Positions 15,812 through 24,480 of a DNA stretch of 64,000 nt are shown piece by piece. The DNA comes from Rubrobacter calidifluminis (lineage in GTDB: Bacteria; Actinomycetota; Rubrobacteria; Rubrobacterales; Rubrobacteraceae). How positions within the stretch are numbered: the stretch's first letter is position 1; each line of letters opens with the position of its first letter. Where the stretch lies: assembly GCF_028617075.1 (NCBI RefSeq), contig NZ_JAQKGV010000001.1:62001-126000 (forward strand), given 5' to 3'. A model generated the notes under the pieces. The model ran no database searches, was not told where the DNA came from, and saw only the letters and a list, made by a program, of their open reading frames with translations. Both the position numbers and the translations under genes were made by a program.

Positions 15812-17260
15812 GTGGAGGGGCTGCTCGAGCTCTCGGCCTTCGAGCTGGCCGGGAAGATAGCGTCGGGAGAGGTCTCGGCCCGGGAGGCGGCCGAGGCCGC
15901 CAGCGAGCGCGTGGAGGCCGCAGAACCCGAGGTGCACGCCATGATCACGCCGACGCCGGAGCTCGCTCTGGAGCGGGCGGAGCGGGTGGACGAGAGGAGG
16001 GCGCGGGGCGAGGAGCTCGCGCCCTGGGAGGGCGTTCCGATCGCGGTGAAGGACGTGCTCTCCACCCGCGGGGTGCGCACGACCTGCGGTTCGCGGATCC
16101 TGGAGAACTTCGAGCCGGTCTACGAGGCGACGGCGCTAGCGCGTCTGGGGGAGCCGGTAGTCGTGGGCAAGGCGAACATGGACGAGTTCGCGATGGGCTC
16201 CTCGACCGAGAACTCGGCCTTCGGCCCGACCCGCAACCCGTGGGATCTCTCGCGGGTCCCGGGGGGCTCCTCGGGCGGCTCGGCCGCGGCGGTCGCCGCC
16301 GGGGAGGGCTGGTGGGCCCTGGGGACCGACACCGGTGGCTCGGTGCGCCAGCCCGCCGCCCTCTGCGGGATCGTCGGGCTCAAGCCGACCTACGGGCGCG
16401 TCTCGCGCTACGGGCTCGTCGCCTTCGCCTCCTCGCTGGATCAGATCGGACCGATGACCCGCGACGTGCGCGACGCGGCGCTGCTCCTCTCGGCGATCGC
16501 AGGCCGCGACCCGCGCGACTCGACGAGCGCGAGCGCGGAGGTTCCCGACTACCTGGCGGAGCTCGATCGCGGGGTGGAAGGCCTTCGGGTCGGCATCATC
16601 GGCGAGATGATGGGGGAGGGGATAGAGCCAGGGGTGCGCGAGGTCGTCGAGCGGGCGGCGAGGAGCCTCGAAGAGGCTGGGGCCGAGGTCGGCGAGGCGC
16701 ACCTGCCGCACCAGGAGTACGCGCTCGCGGCCTACTACATCATCGCCCCGGCGGAGGTCTCCTCGAATTTGGCCCGCTTCGACGGGGTGCGCTACGGGAT
16801 GCGGGTCGAGGCAGAGGGGGTGCACGAGATGTTCCGCAGAACCCGCGGGCGTGGCTTCGGGGACGAGGCCAAGCGGCGCATCATGCTCGGCACCTACGCG
16901 CTCTCCTCCGGCTACTACGAGGCGTACTACGCCCAGGCGCAGAAGGTGAGGACCAGGATCATCGAGGACTTCAGGGCGGCCTTCTCCCGCTTCGACGTCC
17001 TGCTCTCCCCGACCTCGCCGACGGTCGCCTTCGGGCTCGGCGAGAAGGTGGAGGACCCGCTCGCGATGTACGCGCAGGATATCTGCTCTATCCCGGCGAA
17101 TCTGGCCGGCATCCCCGCCATCAGCGTCCCGGGGGGACTCTCGGAGGGGCTCCCGGTCGGGGTGCAGCTCATGGGGAACCACTTCGCCGAGGCGACGCTG
17201 CTGCGGGCCGCACGCACCGTCGAGGAGGCGTCGGGGTTCAGGTTCGAGATGAGGCCGTAG
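15812..17260 (+). CDS. gatA: Asp-tRNA(Asn)/Glu-tRNA(Gln) amidotransferase subunit GatA
   Basis: Glutamine/asparagine amidase subunit that releases ammonia for GatB; 482 aa, normal length. Amidase-signature residues are visible: catalytic Lys in [10 protein letters not shown], and the Ser-cisSer pair in [16 protein letters not shown] and [19 protein letters not shown]. The GTG start lies one base after the gatC stop, implying translational coupling. Presence of gatCAB implies that Asn-tRNA and/or Gln-tRNA are made indirectly. Confidence 0.94.
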
Positions 17261-17323: not shown

Positions 17324-18781
17324 TTGGAGGTAAAGGAGAGAGAGGCTTACCAGGCGGTCATCGGGCTCGAGTTCCACGCCCACATCGCCACCCGCACGAA
17401 GATGTTCTGCGGCTGTCGGGTCTCCTACGGGGACGAGCCGAACACCCACACCTGCCCGGTGTGCCTGGGGCACCCGGGGGCCCTTCCGGTGGCGAACGAG
17501 CGGGCGGTCGAGCTCGGGGTGATGGCGGGGCTCGCGATGGGGTGCGAGGTGGCCCCGCGGGCCGTCTTCGCCCGCAAGAACTACTTCTACCCGGACCTGC
17601 CCAAGGGGTATCAGATCTCTCAGTACGAGGAGCCGATCTGCACCGGCGGGCACATAGACGTGCAGACCTCCTCGGGCACCGTGCGGGTGCGCATTCGCCG
17701 GCTGCACCTGGAGGAGGACACCGCCAAGAACGTCCACGTCGGCACCAGCGGCAGGATGCACGGCTCCACGGCCTCGCTCATAGACTTCAACCGCAGCGGC
17801 ACCCCGCTGATGGAGATCGTCACCGAGCCCGACATCCCCTCGGCCGAGGCCGCGCGCGAGACCGCGCTGCGCCTGAGGGACATCCTGCGGGCCGTCGGCG
17901 CCTCCGAGGCGGACATGGAGAAGGGGCAGCTCCGCTGCGAGGCGAACGTCTCGATCCGCAACCCCGACGGCTCTCTCGGTACGCGCACCGAGCTGAAGAA
18001 CATAAACTCGTTCCGCTTCATGGAGCGGGCGATAGAGCGCGAGCTCCGGCGCCAGCGCGAGATCGTCGCCTCCGGCGGGACGGTACGCCAGACCACCATC
18101 CACTACGACCCCGAAGACGACGAGGTCTACGAGACCCGCAGCAAGGAGTACGCCGAGGACTACCGCTACTTCCCCGAGCCGGATCTGCTCCCGCTGCAGT
18201 TGAGCGAGGAATGGGTCGAGGGGTTGCGCGCCCGGCTGCCCGAGCTGCCCGAGGCGATGCGCGCCCGGTTCATCAAGCAGTACGGGCTCTCCGAAGAGGC
18301 CGCGGGCGTGCTCACCGTCGAGAGGGAGCTCGCCGCCTACTACGAGGAGGTCGCTGCGCAGGTCGACCCGAGGCAGGCGGCCAACTGGATCTCGGGTGAC
18401 CTGAGGGCGCTGCTGAACGAATCGGGGCTTTCGATCTCGGAGTGCAAAATCCTCCCCGGGCACATGGCCGAGCTGATCGGGCTCGTCCAGAGCGGTGATC
18501 TCTCGCGCTCGGCGGCCAAGGAGGTGCTCGAAAGGAGCTTCGAGACCGGCGAGCGACCACAGGAGATAGTCGAGCGCGAGGGGCTCGGAACCGTCGGCGG
18601 TGACGAGCTCTCCGGGATCGTCGAGCGGGTTATCTCCTCGAACCCCGAGGAAGCGCGGAGGGTGCGCGAGGGGGACAGGAAGGTCGTCGGGTTCCTGATC
18701 GGACAGGTCATGCGCGAGACCCGCGGCAACGCCGACGGTGGGAAGGTGCGCGAGATCCTGATGGAGAAGCTCGGATCCTGA
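17324..18781 (+). CDS. gatB: Asp-tRNA(Asn)/Glu-tRNA(Gln) amidotransferase subunit GatB
   Basis: tRNA-binding and kinase/transamidase subunit, 485 aa. The cradle domain starts AVIGLEFHAHIATRTKMFC. Zinc-type cysteines occur in FCGCRVSY and HTCPVCLGHPG. The signatures NYFYPDLPKGYQISQYE and DFNRSGTPLMEIVTEPD are typical. The C-terminal YqeY-like helical domain (about 335-485) contacts the tRNA. The TTG start has GAGGTG roughly 11 nt upstream. The ilvD-like gene follows after 8 nt. Confidence 0.93.
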   Translation: MEVKEREAYQAVIGLEFHAHIATRTKMFCGCRVSYGDEPNTHTCPVCLGHPGALPVANERAVELGVMAGLAMGCEVAPRAVFARKNYFYPDLPKGYQISQYEEPICTGGHIDVQTSSGTVRVRIRRLHLEEDTAKNVHVGTSGRMHGSTASLIDFNRSGTPLMEIVTEPDIPSAEAARETALRLRDILRAVGASEADMEKGQLRCEANVSIRNPDGSLGTRTELKNINSFRFMERAIERELRRQREIVASGGTVRQTTIHYDPEDDEVYETRSKEYAEDYRYFPEPDLLPLQLSEEWVEGLRARLPELPEAMRARFIKQYGLSEEAAGVLTVERELAAYYEEVAAQVDPRQAANWISGDLRALLNESGLSISECKILPGHMAELIGLVQSGDLSRSAAKEVLERSFETGERPQEIVEREGLGTVGGDELSGIVERVISSNPEEARRVREGDRKVVGFLIGQVMRETRGNADGGKVREILMEKLGS

Positions 18782-18789
18782 GCCCGAAG

Positions 18790-19998
18790 ATGCGCATCGG
18801 CGTGCCGGGCCCGGAGGATTCCGGGCTCTCCGAGGCGGTCGCGGAGGCCGGCGGGGAGCCCGTCCCCGTATCGCTGCCCTCATTCTCTCCCCGGGGAGGC
18901 GTCGCGCTCCGGCGCGAGTGGGTGGCAGACTCCGTGGAGGTCGCCTGCGAGGCGCTCCGGGTGGAGGCGCTCCTGCTGGAGGCAGCAAGGAGCGAAGATC
19001 TGGCGGGGCTTCTGCTCGCGGCGCTGCGCCTGGACGTCCCGGCCGTGCTCGCCTCGCCCCCCTCGACCCCGCTCTCGGCGGCGCTCGCCGCGCTCGGGTT
19101 CTGGACTTTCGGGGGCGAGCCGGTCGGGGCGTTGCTCTCGGACCCTCCGCGCTCGCGCGGGCTCGTCGACAGCTTCTCGCTCTCCAACGCACTGCACGCC
19201 GGGCTAGCCCTCGGGGGCGGGCCGGAGATGCTGGTGCACCTCGCCGCCTTCGCCAACGAGACAGACTCCTACGGCTTCTCCCAGATGGCGCGCGTGCTCG
19301 CCCCGGAGAGACCCGCCATCGCCGACACGAGGTCGAGCTGGTTCCGCGAGCACGGCCTCGGCGGGGTGCTCGCCCTGCTCGACGACATCCACGACGTGAG
19401 CACCCTGGGGGGCGACCTGAAGACGCTCCTGCCCGATCCTGCCCCGCACGCTCCGCCGGGGCGCACCTCACCGCGGATACTGTTCGTCTCCGCCCGCGGT
19501 TCGGGGACAGAGACCGTCGCGCTGGTGCCGAAGGAGAGGGACGAGGTGCTCGGCTGGTGCAGGACATTCACCTCCGAGGAGGCGGCGGCCGCGGCGGTGC
19601 GCGATGGGGAGCTCGAGGAGGGGGACATCCTGGTCGTGCAGGGGTGTGGACCGCACGGAGGGCCCGGTCTCCTGCGGCTGGACGAGCTTGGGCGGGCCAT
19701 AGAGGAGAGCGGTGAGGAGGTACCGGTCTTCACCGATGGGCTGCCGCCCGAGGGAGCCGGTCCACTCTGGTTCTCGCTCACCACGCCGGAGGCTTCCGAG
19801 GAGGGCATGATCGGCCATTTGCAGGACGGCGACTACATACGCTTCGACCTGCGCGAGGAGCGCATCCGCGTCGGGGTGAAGGCCCACGACCTCGAGCTGC
19901 GCACCAGCCCGGTCGAGTCCTGGATGACAGGCAGCGGTTACGCCGCGCGCTACTCCCGCTCGGCGCTCCCGCCGCTCGAAGGGGCAGGATTTGATTAG
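18790..19998 (+). CDS. Degenerate IlvD/Edd (dihydroxy-acid dehydratase family) protein lacking Fe-S cysteines
   Basis: At 402 aa it is shorter than the 550-600 aa of active dehydratases. Co-linear similarity is visible: RREWVADSVEVA (family SRE-IADSVE), LAGLLLAALRLDVPAVLA (family LPG-LMAA-RLNIPA), NALHAGLALGGGPEMLVHLAAFANE (family NA-ALGGSTN-LHL-AIA-E), GDILVVQGCGPHGGPGL, and DGDYIRFDLREERIRV. The Cys-bearing CDKT site reads ARSED. The GxCGGMYTANTM segment with two more ligands is deleted. The GRFSG serine loop reads GLPPEG. By family knowledge it should not bind the cluster or dehydrate. Tight packing between gatB (8 nt) and folP (8-nt overlap) indicates it is expressed. Function unknown. 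Confidence 0.75.
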   Translation: MRIGVPGPEDSGLSEAVAEAGGEPVPVSLPSFSPRGGVALRREWVADSVEVACEALRVEALLLEAARSEDLAGLLLAALRLDVPAVLASPPSTPLSAALAALGFWTFGGEPVGALLSDPPRSRGLVDSFSLSNALHAGLALGGGPEMLVHLAAFANETDSYGFSQMARVLAPERPAIADTRSSWFREHGLGGVLALLDDIHDVSTLGGDLKTLLPDPAPHAPPGRTSPRILFVSARGSGTETVALVPKERDEVLGWCRTFTSEEAAAAAVRDGELEEGDILVVQGCGPHGGPGLLRLDELGRAIEESGEEVPVFTDGLPPEGAGPLWFSLTTPEASEEGMIGHLQDGDYIRFDLREERIRVGVKAHDLELRTSPVESWMTGSGYAARYSRSALPPLEGAGFD

Positions 19999-20878
19999 CC
20001 GGCGGTTCCTGGAGGGGGGGGCCGGGGTGGACGGGAAGGTGGGGCCCGCACCCGGGGAGAGAGTGCACGGAGAGGCGGGGCGCGCGGCGATCATGGGCAT
20101 CCTCAACGCCACCCCGGATTCGTTCTACGACAGGGGCCGCTACTACGGGCTCGAGAAAGGGGTCGAGCGGGCGCGCCAGCTCGTCGCCGAAGGGGCGGAC
20201 ATCCTGGACATCGGCGGGGTTAAGGCCGCGGCGGGACCCCCGCTCCCGGTCGAGGAGGAGCTGCGGCGGGTCGTCCCGCTCGTCGAGCGGGTGCGCGAGA
20301 TCAGCCCGGTCCCCATCTCCATCGACACCTTCACGCCGGAGGTCGCGCGCGAGGCGCTCAAGCGCGGGGCGGACATCATCAACGACACCTCGGGGCTCGC
20401 CGACCCGCGCCTGGTGGAGGTGGTGGCGGAGGCCGGGGCGAGGGTCGTCATCATGCACCGGGCGAGCCCGCCGCGGGTCAAGATGCCGCTGCCGCGCTAC
20501 GGTGACGTGGTCCGGGAGGTCGTCGAGTTCCTGCGCGGCCGGATCGAGGTGGCGCTCGCCGGCGGCATCACCCGGGAGAACATCATCGTCGACCCCGGGC
20601 TGGACTTCGACAAGAGCGCCCACCACTCGCTCGAGCTCCTGCGCCGGTTGCCGGAGATAAAGGCGCTGGGATACCCGGTGCTCCTCGCCGTGAGCCGCAA
20701 GGACTTCATCGGGGAGGTGCTCGGGGTGCCGGTCGAGGAGCGGCTCGCGGGGACGGCCGCCGTGACCGCGCTCTCGGTCGCTGCGAGGGCCGACATCGTA
20801 CGGGTGCACGACGTGGGCTTCATGCGTCAGGTGGCGCGCATGGCCGAGGCGATAGTGGGAGCGGGGGGCGATCGGTGA
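19991..20878 (+). CDS. folP: Dihydropteroate synthase
   Basis: Condenses p-aminobenzoate with dihydropterin pyrophosphate in folate synthesis; TIM barrel. Motifs are IMGILNATPDSFYDRG (pterin pyrophosphate loop), ILDIGGVKAAAG in place of the usual GGESTRPG, PISIDTFTPEVA, DIINDTSGLADP and VSRKDFIGEVLG. The GGVKAAAG variant of loop 2 is unusual: the STRP residues that bind p-aminobenzoate in most enzymes are absent. TTG 19991 overlaps the upstream gene by 8 nt. GTG 20027 is another possible start, because the first 30 residues look non-conserved. Confidence 0.85.
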   Translation: MISRRFLEGGAGVDGKVGPAPGERVHGEAGRAAIMGILNATPDSFYDRGRYYGLEKGVERARQLVAEGADILDIGGVKAAAGPPLPVEEELRRVVPLVERVREISPVPISIDTFTPEVAREALKRGADIINDTSGLADPRLVEVVAEAGARVVIMHRASPPRVKMPLPRYGDVVREVVEFLRGRIEVALAGGITRENIIVDPGLDFDKSAHHSLELLRRLPEIKALGYPVLLAVSRKDFIGEVLGVPVEERLAGTAAVTALSVAARADIVRVHDVGFMRQVARMAEAIVGAGGDR

Positions 20879-21654
20879 GGGGGCCGGCCCTGCGGCTTTA
20901 CCCGGCGCCCGGCGGGGAGGTGGACCCCGGGAGCATCTACGCGGACCTCGATCTCCCCGCGGGAGACCCCTACCTGGTCTTCACGATGGTCAGCACCGTC
21001 GACGGCAAGGCCGCCCAGGGAGGGAGGGCCAACCCGATCGGGTCCGACCTGGACCATCTGCTCATGCGGCGTATCCGCTCGGCGGTGGACGCGGTGATGA
21101 GCGGAGCCGGGACGCTGCGTGCCGAGGGCGTGGACCTCGGCGTGCCGGAGGAGATGGCCCGGAAGAGGGTTTCCTCGGGGCTCCGCGAGCAGCCGCTGCA
21201 GGTGATCGTCACGGGCAGCGGCGAGCTGCCGCTCGAGCGCAGGATTTTTCGGGAGGCCGGAGACGACCTCCTCGTCATCGTCTCGGAGGCGACCCCTGAG
21301 GAGAAGGTCAGGGAGATCTCACGCCGGACGACCGTCCGCCGCGTGGCGGGGGATCCCGAGCCCGAGGTGCAGGAGGTGGTGGGGCTTCTCCGCCACGAGT
21401 TCGGTGTCCGGCGGCTCGCCGTCGAGGGGGGCCCGCGCCTCAACCACTCGCTCGTCGCGGCGGGGCTCGCCGACGAGCTCTTCCTCACTCTCGCGCCGAA
21501 GGTGATAGGGGGATCCTCGGTTCCCACCATCGTCGCGGGGGAGGAGTTGCCTGAGGATGAGGTCGCCCGCCTTCGGCTCCTCTCGGCCTACCTGCAGGGC
21601 AGCGAGCTCTACCTCCGCTACCGCTTCACGGGGCGAGAAGGAAACAGCTTGTAG
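20875..21654 (+). CDS. RibD C-terminal (DHFR-like) domain reductase
   Basis: Stand-alone reductase-fold protein of 259 aa without the deaminase domain of RibD. Motifs are FTMVSTVDGKAAQGG, RIRSAVDAVMSGAGTLRAEGVDL, VRRLAVEGGPRLNHSLVAAGLADELFLTLAPKV (broken: LAVEGGPRLNHSLV then LADELFLTLAPK) and GGSSVP. Such proteins reduce pyrimidine riboflavin precursors or, in some organisms, may act on dihydrofolate. The GTG start overlaps the folP stop by 4 nt. Coupling to folP and absence of riboflavin genes nearby make a folate role plausible, but this is inference. Confidence 0.8.
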   Translation: MRGPALRLYPAPGGEVDPGSIYADLDLPAGDPYLVFTMVSTVDGKAAQGGRANPIGSDLDHLLMRRIRSAVDAVMSGAGTLRAEGVDLGVPEEMARKRVSSGLREQPLQVIVTGSGELPLERRIFREAGDDLLVIVSEATPEEKVREISRRTTVRRVAGDPEPEVQEVVGLLRHEFGVRRLAVEGGPRLNHSLVAAGLADELFLTLAPKVIGGSSVPTIVAGEELPEDEVARLRLLSAYLQGSELYLRYRFTGREGNSL

Positions 21655-21745: not shown

Positions 21746-22903
21746 ATGATGAGCAAGTACCGCCTGATGTCACCCGGTCCCACCCCGATCCCGCCGGAGG
21801 TCTCCGCGACGGGTGCGCTGCCGATCATCCACCACCGCACCCCGGAGTTCGGTGAGGTCTTCACCCGCGTCGGCGAGAACCTCAAGCGGGTGTTCATGAC
21901 CAGGAACGACATCTTCGTCTACGCCGCGAGCGGCACCGGGGCGTTCGAGGGGGCGCTGCAGAACCTGTTTTCTCCCGGCGACAAGGTTCTTGTCGTCAAC
22001 AACGGCAACTTCGGGGAGCGCTGGGCCAAGATGGGACGGGCCTTCGGTCTGGAGGTGACCGAGCTCGTCTACGAGTGGGGGCAGAAGGCGGACAACGCCG
22101 AGGTGGCCGACGCCCTCTCCGCGGACCCGGGGATAAAGGCCGCCGTCTGCGTCCTCTCCGAGACCTCGACCGGGACCGTCAACGACATCGAGGGCTTCGC
22201 GAAGGCCACCGAGAACGTCGTCACGATCGTCGACGCCGTCTCGGGGCTCGGGGCGTGCGAGCTCAGGACCGACGAGTGGGGCGTCGACGTGGTGGTGGCG
22301 GGCAGCCAGAAGGCGCTCATGACCCCGCCGGGGCTCGGGTTCGTGAGCGTCTCCGAGCGGGCGTGGCGGGCACACCAGGAGGCTGCGATGCCGCGCTTCT
22401 ACTTCGACTGGACCCAGGCGAAGAAGGCCTCCCAGAAGAACCCGCCGCAGACCCCCTGGACTCCCCCGGTGAGCCTGGTGATGCAGCTCGACGTGGCGCT
22501 CGGGCAGATCCTGGATGAGGGCCTCGAGAACGTCCTCGAACGTCACGTGCTGCTCGGCCGGGCGGCCCGCGCCGGCGTCAAGGGGATGGGGCTCAGGCTC
22601 TTCGGCCCCGACGAGGACATGAACACCGCGGTGACCGCCGCGTGGGTGCCGGATGAAATCGACGGCAAGCGCTTCGTCAACACCCTCTTCCAGGAGCACG
22701 GCGTGCAGGTCGCCGGGGGGCAGGGCAAGATGAGCGGCAAGATCTTCCGCATCGGGCACTGCGGCTACTTCGACGCCTACGACATCATCGCGACGATCGC
22801 CGCGGCCGAGCTCACGCTTGAGTCCCTCGGGTATCCCGTCGAGCTCGGGAAGGGCGTCGCGGCGGCCCAGCGGGTGTTCTCGAAGAGCGGGGTGGCCGCT
22901 TGA
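21746..22903 (+). CDS. Class V PLP aminotransferase (serine-pyruvate/alanine-glyoxylate type), probable SerC role
   Basis: A 385-aa aminotransferase. The N-terminus MSPGPTPIPPEV and FVYAASGTGAFEGALQNLF are typical of small-subunit class V enzymes. The PLP-binding Asp is in TIVDAVSGLGACEL and the Schiff-base Lys in VVVAGSQKALMTPPGL. Because serA overlaps its stop by 4 nt, it probably transaminates 3-phosphohydroxypyruvate in serine synthesis. Archaea and some other lineages use such enzymes in place of classical SerC. Sequence alone does not exclude alanine-glyoxylate or serine-pyruvate activity. Two tandem ATGs (21746, 21749) are possible starts. Confidence 0.85.
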   Translation: MMSKYRLMSPGPTPIPPEVSATGALPIIHHRTPEFGEVFTRVGENLKRVFMTRNDIFVYAASGTGAFEGALQNLFSPGDKVLVVNNGNFGERWAKMGRAFGLEVTELVYEWGQKADNAEVADALSADPGIKAAVCVLSETSTGTVNDIEGFAKATENVVTIVDAVSGLGACELRTDEWGVDVVVAGSQKALMTPPGLGFVSVSERAWRAHQEAAMPRFYFDWTQAKKASQKNPPQTPWTPPVSLVMQLDVALGQILDEGLENVLERHVLLGRAARAGVKGMGLRLFGPDEDMNTAVTAAWVPDEIDGKRFVNTLFQEHGVQVAGGQGKMSGKIFRIGHCGYFDAYDIIATIAAAELTLESLGYPVELGKGVAAAQRVFSKSGVAA

Positions 22904-24480
22904 GGGTACTGGTAACCGAGAAGATCTCCGAGAGCGGCGTCGAGCTCCTGAAGCGGGAGTTCGACGTCGACGTGGCGCTCGGGCTCTCCCCGCAGGAGCT
23001 CTTGGAGAAGATAGGCGGCTACGACGGCCTCATCGTGCGCAGCGCGACGAAGGTTACGGCGGAGGTCATCGAGGCCGCGGGGAACCTCAAGGCGATAGGG
23101 CGCGCCGGGATCGGGGTGGACAACATAGACGTCGAGGCCGCGACCAAGCGCGGCATCCTGGTGGCCAACGCCCCGGAGAGCAATACCGTCGCCGCCGCCG
23201 AGCACACTTTAGGGATGATGCTCGCGGTCGCCCGGCGCATCCCGGCCGCCGACGCCTCGCTGAGGCGGGGGGAGTGGAACCGGGGGGCGTTCAAGGGGGT
23301 CGAGGTCGCCAGGAAGACGCTCGGGCTCATCGGGCTCGGGCACGTCGGTTCGATCGTCGCGCGCGGCGCTTTGGGGATGGGGATGGAGGTCCTCGCCTAC
23401 GACCCCTACGTCTCCGGGGAGAGGATGCGGGACATGGGCGTCGGGCGGGCGGAGAGCGTGGAGGAGGTGCTCGAGAAGGCGGACTTCGTCTCGCTGCACG
23501 TCCCCCGTACACCGCAGACGACCGGCATGATAGACGCGGAGGCGCTCGGTCGGATGAAGAGGAGTGCCTACCTGATAAACGTCGCCCGCGGCGGGATCGT
23601 GGACGAGCAGGCACTCTATCAGGCCCTCAAGGAGGGGAAGATAGCCGGGGCCGCGCTCGACGTGTTCACCGAGGAGCCGCCCGCGGGGTCTCCTCTTCTC
23701 GAGCTGCCGAACACGGTGCTCACCCCACACCTGGGGGCGAGCACCGCCGAGGCGCAGGACCGGGCCGGCCTCACCGCCGCCGAGCAGGTGGCGGCGGCGC
23801 TCAGGGGGGAGGTCCCGGTGCACGCGATCAACGCGCCGGTGCCCTCCGGCGAGGGTGCAGAGTTCGTCTCCCAGTTCTCCGGGCTGTGCGAGACGCTCGG
23901 GAGGCTCCTGTATCAGCTCACCGACCATCCGGGCAACCTGCTCAGGATCGAGTACCACGGCGAGGTCGCCCGCTACGACACCCGGCTTCTGGACGTCTCG
24001 GCGCAGAAGGGGCTCCTGGAGCCGATGGTCCACGAGCCGCTGAACTTCGTGAACACCCCGATCATCGCCCGCGAGAAGGGGTTCAAGGTGGAGACCTCGC
24101 GATCGCCGGAGAGCGCGGACTACACGAGCCTGGTGGTGCTCCGGCTCTCGAACGAGAGGGAGAGCGTGGTGAGCGGGACGCTAGTCGGCCCGCGCATGCG
24201 TCCGCGCCTGGTCGGAGTTTTGGGCTTAGACGTGGACATAGAGCCCGAGCGGTACATGCTCTTCATCCGCAACGAGGACGTGCCCGGCATGATCGGCAAG
24301 GTCGGGACCGCCCTCGGCGGCCACGGCATCAACATCGGCAACATGGCCGTCGGGCGCGGGGAGCCGGGCTCGCGGGCGGTCATGGCGGTGACCGTGGACG
24401 ACCCGGTGCCTCAGGAGGTGATAGAGGATCTGCTCAAGATCCCGGGTTTCAAGGAGGCCCGTCCGGTGACGCTCTGGTGA
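22900..24480 (+). CDS. serA: D-3-phosphoglycerate dehydrogenase
   Basis: First enzyme of phosphorylated serine synthesis, NAD-linked, 526 aa (long, type I form). The Rossmann motif is GLIGLGHVGSIVARGALGMG with a downstream acidic region. The catalytic Arg is in VNVARGGIVDEQAL, and Glu/His lie in the FTEEPP and LTPHLGASTAEAQ segments. The intervening ASB domain spans about 320-450. The C-terminal ACT domain (about 453-526) reads MLFIRNEDVPGMIGKVG and NIGNMAVGR and allows serine feedback. The TTG start overlaps the aminotransferase stop (TTGA). Confidence 0.95.
   Translation: MRVLVTEKISESGVELLKREFDVDVALGLSPQELLEKIGGYDGLIVRSATKVTAEVIEAAGNLKAIGRAGIGVDNIDVEAATKRGILVANAPESNTVAAAEHTLGMMLAVARRIPAADASLRRGEWNRGAFKGVEVARKTLGLIGLGHVGSIVARGALGMGMEVLAYDPYVSGERMRDMGVGRAESVEEVLEKADFVSLHVPRTPQTTGMIDAEALGRMKRSAYLINVARGGIVDEQALYQALKEGKIAGAALDVFTEEPPAGSPLLELPNTVLTPHLGASTAEAQDRAGLTAAEQVAAALRGEVPVHAINAPVPSGEGAEFVSQFSGLCETLGRLLYQLTDHPGNLLRIEYHGEVARYDTRLLDVSAQKGLLEPMVHEPLNFVNTPIIAREKGFKVETSRSPESADYTSLVVLRLSNERESVVSGTLVGPRMRPRLVGVLGLDVDIEPERYMLFIRNEDVPGMIGKVGTALGGHGINIGNMAVGRGEPGSRAVMAVTVDDPVPQEVIEDLLKIPGFKEARPVTLW

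Follow-up and report, generated by a model that had tools for sequence, protein, structure and literature searches.

Gene X of Rubrobacter calidifluminis, located directly behind gatB in the window (the whole stretch of 64,000 nucleotides analyzed here), encoded a protein of a new, catalytically stripped subfamily of the known IlvD/Edd fold, and was most likely reused for a new, non-dehydratase job. IlvD/Edd proteins are standard Fe-S dehydratases, and Rubrobacteraceae keep one without any catalytic residue beside a normal IlvD. No paper combining dihydroxy-acid dehydratase (DHAD) with pseudoenzyme, or gatB with ilvD and Rubrobacter, was found in the open literature (subscription literature was outside the scope). 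The ORF of X was intact, with an ATG start and 402 aa, in agreement with a first-pass annotation of the sequence, in which an intact gene of approximately 400 codons was described. The gene was also said to be embedded between gatB and folP and to overlap its neighbors: gatB was indeed a constant neighbor, but folP adjoined X solely in the window's genus, and the overlap held for folP (8 nt, provided that TTG 19991 is the start of folP), but not for gatB, the stop of which was separated from the X start by a gap of 8 nt. The genes concerned are as follows.

15812..17260, + strand: gatA (reading, and phmmer hits located where gatA lies in relatives).
17324..18781, + strand: gatB, the constant upstream neighbor, with its stop 8 nt before the X start (Pfam, synteny).
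18790..19998, + strand: gene X, a 402-aa IlvD/Edd-fold protein without catalytic residues (ORF, Pfam, AlphaFold/Foldseek, family orthologues).
19991..20878, + strand: folP (dihydropteroate synthase), putative start TTG 19991, neighbor of X in the window's genus only (Pfam, NCBIfam, synteny).
21746..22903, + strand: class-V aminotransferase (serC-like), 3' of X in many relatives (Pfam, synteny).
22900..24480, + strand: serA-like 2-hydroxyacid dehydrogenase (reading, and matches in relatives).

A RibD_C/DHFR-like protein, possibly a folate or flavin reductase (Pfam), was encoded at positions 20875-21654 of the window and overlapped the end of folP.

Both IlvD/Edd Pfam domains were matched by X above their cut-offs, ILV_EDD_C with 4.1e-21 and 75.7 bits (cut-off, 27.7) and ILVD_EDD_N with 1.2e-9 and 38.2 bits (cut-off, 27), and also by 29/29 X orthologues. 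Among the NCBIfam models, those of DHAD ranked first, with a TIGR00110 score of 93.1 bits, far under the equivalog cut-off of 618; PRK00911 was the best model in hmmscan, and the sequence matched solved DHAD structures (6ovt, 1.5e-18). The rank of PRK00911 indicated that X was derived from DHAD, and not from sugar-acid dehydratases. An AlphaFold model built from 29 orthologues (pLDDT 89.4, pTM 0.92) matched 6NTE in Foldseek with 6.6e-25 (TMq 0.79), the top 25 PDB matches were all IlvD/Edd with DHADs ranking best, and the TM-score against DHAD (by X length) was 0.79-0.83 over the whole X chain. The profile search and structure prediction, which the first-pass annotation had proposed as checks, both led to IlvD/Edd. 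On the other hand, its statement that the whole dehydratase chain could be followed was too strong because X was approximately 160 residues shorter than the canonical IlvD of the same genome (402 versus 561), with the IlvD N-terminus and the stretch surrounding the final Cys ligand both missing.

The known ligands of the dehydratases are two or three Fe-S cysteines and Asp, Asp, Lys, and Glu for Mg2+, with Ser as the base (PMC9543379); in L-arabinonate dehydratase, the corresponding list includes Glu91, Asp128, carboxy-Lys129, and Glu453 (PMC11316719). The active site was compared in an alignment of 32 X sequences and 57 canonical IlvD, and the following sites were located in X.

18988..18996, + strand: residues 67-69 (R-S-E) at the C-D-K of IlvD (Fe-S Cys, Mg2+ Asp, and Mg2+ carboxy-Lys; alignment, roles from PMC9543379 and PMC11316719).
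19675..19677, + strand: Arg296 at the position of the Mg2+-ligand Glu (E447, Arg in 25/32; alignment, equivalent to Glu446 in the PMC9543379 alignment).
19732..19755, + strand: TDGLPPEG loop, in which the catalytic Ser of TDGRFSG is replaced by Pro320 (Pro in 32/32; alignment).

The LVGCDKT of IlvD corresponded to LEAARSED in the X of the window, and C-D-K was mostly (E/S/R/H)-P-(E/A) across the orthologues (C125 to E/S/R/H, D126 to P, and K127 to E/A). The C-P-x-x-G-A-C segment containing the last Cys was deleted, with the C197 position gone in 31/32 orthologues, as was the N-terminal region carrying the other Fe-S Cys, and the first Mg2+ Asp (D84) was mostly replaced by G/W. The three features read earlier from the window, ARSED in the CDKT cysteine region, the deletion of the second Cys-bearing segment, and GLPPEG in the serine loop, were all borne out. 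Structural columns were retained: R42, E43, D47, R80, N133, H150, T315-D316-G317, G287, G293, P333, and D348. Since the metal ligands and catalytic base are all gone, X cannot act as a dehydratase of the IlvD-type mechanism. The Cys and Ser loop were absent in every orthologue, so that the X of the window was not a lone decayed copy, and stripping was ancestral to Rubrobacteraceae.

Besides these losses, 41 of the IlvD-invariant columns differed in X, and 10 of them were fixed (≥90%) to another residue. Switched and fixed columns (IlvD to X) were S273 to G144, N275 to E146, A388 to S238, P389 to G239, G391 to E241, A408 to C257, and S473 to P320. W44, F129, W184, R236, Y384, R387, and F401 were fixed in X alone, and E146, R236, S238, G239, E241, C257, and P320 were new fixed residues at which IlvD differs. 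Two X-specific cysteines were located as follows.

19558..19560, + strand: Cys257, in 29/32 orthologues (Ala in IlvD; alignment).
19645..19647, + strand: Cys286 in GCGPxGGPG, in 26/32 (Glu in the YEGPKGGPG of IlvD; alignment).

Among 29 X sequences, 35 positions were invariant and 42 were nearly invariant. The conserved replacements (E146, S238-G239-x-E241, C257, and P320) point to a rewritten, conserved site, and not to free drift.

X was present in 38 of the 40 Rubrobacteraceae genomes searched, including that of the window, and formed one clade with full support in the tree. The remaining two genomes, which were 60% and 79% complete, lacked a gatB match as well, and, therefore, the X-gatB region was probably merely missing from them. 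Outside Rubrobacteraceae, a search of approximately 357 further genomes from the phylum revealed no X, and its matches were IlvD of canonical length (≤136 bits), besides one short fragment in G319. When genome contigs were searched for related loci, the sole return was a MAG of the same genus (JAIMBO010000058.1, 'Rubrobacteraceae bacterium'), with an X that was 97% identical. Where a contig covered the gene, nearly all genomes carried a full-length open frame, even with proteins as low as 43% identical to that of the window. In one two-contig assembly (G023; L038, G023:C1:2784000-2797000), X, serC, and serA were all split by frameshifts; since serC and serA were split as well, the split X was probably an assembly error. 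A canonical ilvD was found elsewhere in 26/26 Rubrobacteraceae genomes examined, and that of the window's own genome, the existence of which the first-pass annotation had wished to see confirmed together with conservation and selection, was located near ruvAB (G000:C10). Pairwise dN/dS values (Nei-Gojobori), for which dS was probably underestimated at this GC content, were 0.12-0.35 for X; in the same pairs, gatB had values of 0.06-0.19 and ilvD of 0.08-0.24, with those of X being 1.5-5 times those of gatB. Since the X values were well below 1, X is under purifying selection. The earlier proposal of a maintained pseudoenzyme or new activity, rather than decay, was supported by the fold match, family-wide stripping, dN/dS below 1, and canonical ilvD elsewhere.

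X was located directly behind gatB wherever the contig reached that far. gatB was its sole constant neighbor, while gatA (sometimes kilobases from X in relatives), folP, serC, and serA came and went. The likely start of X was ≤18 nt from the gatB stop in 25/33 loci, with weak GTG/TTG starts being common, and this spacing suggests that X is translationally coupled to gatB; however, it can also be mere operon economy. An apparent GatB-X fusion in G010 (912-aa open frame) was rejected, as gatB ends at a TAG of its own and the frame of X is merely open upstream. A folate link was also rejected, with folP next to X being incidental to one genus. Thirteen outgroup genomes, representing several families of the phylum, carried ilvD on the gatB strand at a distance of 1.6-8 kb downstream of gatB, and in one of them (L085), the gene behind gatB was a divergent IlvD/Edd member. 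The order in L073 was gatA-gatB-...-leuC-leuB-ilvD-ilvB-ilvN-ilvC-serC-serA, and gatB of G052 was directly followed by ilvN-ilvC-serA; gat-ilv-ser is a recurring cluster in the phylum. The ilvB-C-E-leuA genes of the window's own genome were located away from X (G000:C5). Since X lies between gatB and serC/serA, it looks like an ancestral ilvD locus stripped in place, and we consider it fairly probable that X is the in-place descendant of an ilvD that belonged to an ancestral gat-leu-ilv-ser cluster, with a second, canonical ilvD elsewhere having taken over valine/isoleucine synthesis. An alternative origin, in which the present canonical ilvD was duplicated within the family and the copy landed behind gatB, is doubtful: a clade joining X with Rubrobacteraceae IlvD was not rejected by the AU test (p 0.114), whereas the best tree set X outside Rubrobacteraceae IlvD, on a very long branch, too long to place X among IlvDs, and the spot between gatB and serC/serA matches the ilvD-holding cluster of other families. 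Because the AU test does not reject X as a sister of Rubrobacteraceae IlvD, the in-place origin rests on synteny. The location of X, previously regarded as unexplained, is now largely explained on the gatB side by the gat-ilv-ser cluster.

Between ilvB and ilvC, at the expected place of ilvN, a 151-aa protein was encoded (L141:8397-8852; G000:C5:15396-15851). It was conserved in 37/40 Rubrobacteraceae genomes, Pfam ALS_ss_C (AHAS small subunit) gave no match in the 9 Rubrobacteraceae genomes tested, and the predicted fold of the protein matched AHAS regulatory subunits (2f1f, E 1.4e-4); it is probably a strongly diverged IlvN. Given the diverged IlvN of the ilv operon, X need not fill a gap left by a missing AHAS small subunit, and this candidate role was rejected. 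A second ketol-acid reductoisomerase homologue was located at L142:7300-8301 (G000:C2), away from the ilv operon (KARI_C, 81 bits versus 215).

Three other functions of X were weighed. A new enzymatic activity of X, independent of Fe-S and housed in the rewritten IlvD pocket, is rather unlikely; the formerly invariant IlvD columns were not all drifting (10/41 switched columns fixed), but no recognizable new catalytic or cofactor motif was found, C286 and C257 were absent in 6/32 and 3/32 orthologues, respectively, and the neighbors past gatB varied by genus, and, thus, indicated no pathway. Active enzymes are often regulated by their pseudoenzyme paralogues, and X, derived as it appears to be from DHAD (PRK00911 best), could control the synthesis of branched-chain amino acids, for instance through heteromers with the canonical IlvD or by sensing dihydroxy- or keto-acids; the divergence of the Rubrobacteraceae AHAS small subunit past Pfam recognition, which makes pathway regulation unusual here, is consistent with such a role. 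Nevertheless, we regard it as unlikely: X is not near ilvD or ilvBC in its own genome and is behind gatB in others, the canonical IlvD of Rubrobacteraceae showed 0/157 fixed switches where a new interface might leave some, and the IlvD N-terminus is missing from X; in L-arabinonate dehydratase, an N-terminal helix builds the active site of the partner (PMC11316719).

A slowly eroding relic, retained mainly via translation with gatB or transcript stabilization, is improbable. The dN/dS of X was above that of gatB and mostly above that of ilvD, and X contained Ala/Pro/Gly-rich stretches and a variable middle segment; however, the nearly ubiquitous full-length frames at such low identities, the invariant and nearly invariant positions (35 and 42, respectively), and dN/dS of ≤0.35 in near pairs all argue against erosion.

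The best overall explanation, which we put forward tentatively, is a non-dehydratase X that descended in place from ilvD and serves as a non-catalytic partner of GatB/GatCAB; the partnership, taken by itself, is possible, but somewhat doubtful. Translation of X would reinitiate immediately after GatB, the rewritten former pocket of X would bind a small ligand or surface, and X would tune or stabilize the tRNA amidotransferase, much as HisZ serves HisG. The constant place of X behind gatB speaks for this explanation; its dN/dS, higher than that of gatB, speaks against it. As a gauge of possible co-adaptation of GatB, fixed changes at conserved columns were counted, with 7-8/~130 in GatB, 1/162 in GatA, 0/157 in IlvD, and 5/105 in serA; the frequency in GatB exceeded those in GatA and IlvD, but not that in serA, and one of the GatB changes is shared with Aquifex. 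In Rubrobacteraceae GatB (window 17324-18781), F35Y, G134A, I145M, D195E, S202Q, and G215D were fixed against other genomes of the phylum, with S202Q also occurring in Aquifex GatB. A further step, that X is a clade-specific regulatory subunit of tRNA-dependent amidotransferase that arose from a stripped branched-chain enzyme and may sense an intermediate of the branched-chain pathway, is unlikely, but would, if true, link amino-acid supply to Asn/Gln-tRNA formation.

X is a clean natural case of the reuse of an enzyme fold, tied to a core translation gene, in which the likely ancestral gene position is still readable, and genes of this type call for caution against the annotation of ilvD by profile match. 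Compared with DHAD IlvD (PF00920 and PF24877; TIGR00110; PDB 6OVT and 6NTE), X shares the fold, both Pfam domains, and the scaffolding motifs TDG, GPxGGPG, and RE-x-x-x-D, and differs in the absence of Fe-S Cys, Mg2+ ligands, and catalytic Ser and in the two deleted segments. AstD (PDB 9IX7), a fungal DHAD homologue that ranked with the top structural hits of X, is, like X, a DHAD paralogue with a role of its own; AstD is an active, inhibitor-resistant DHAD. HisZ, a catalytically dead paralogue of HisRS, is the regulatory subunit of HisG. It resembles X only in the way it works, as a paralogue without catalysis retained as a helper of a neighboring process, and differs from X in its fold and family, with the partnership of X being a putative one.
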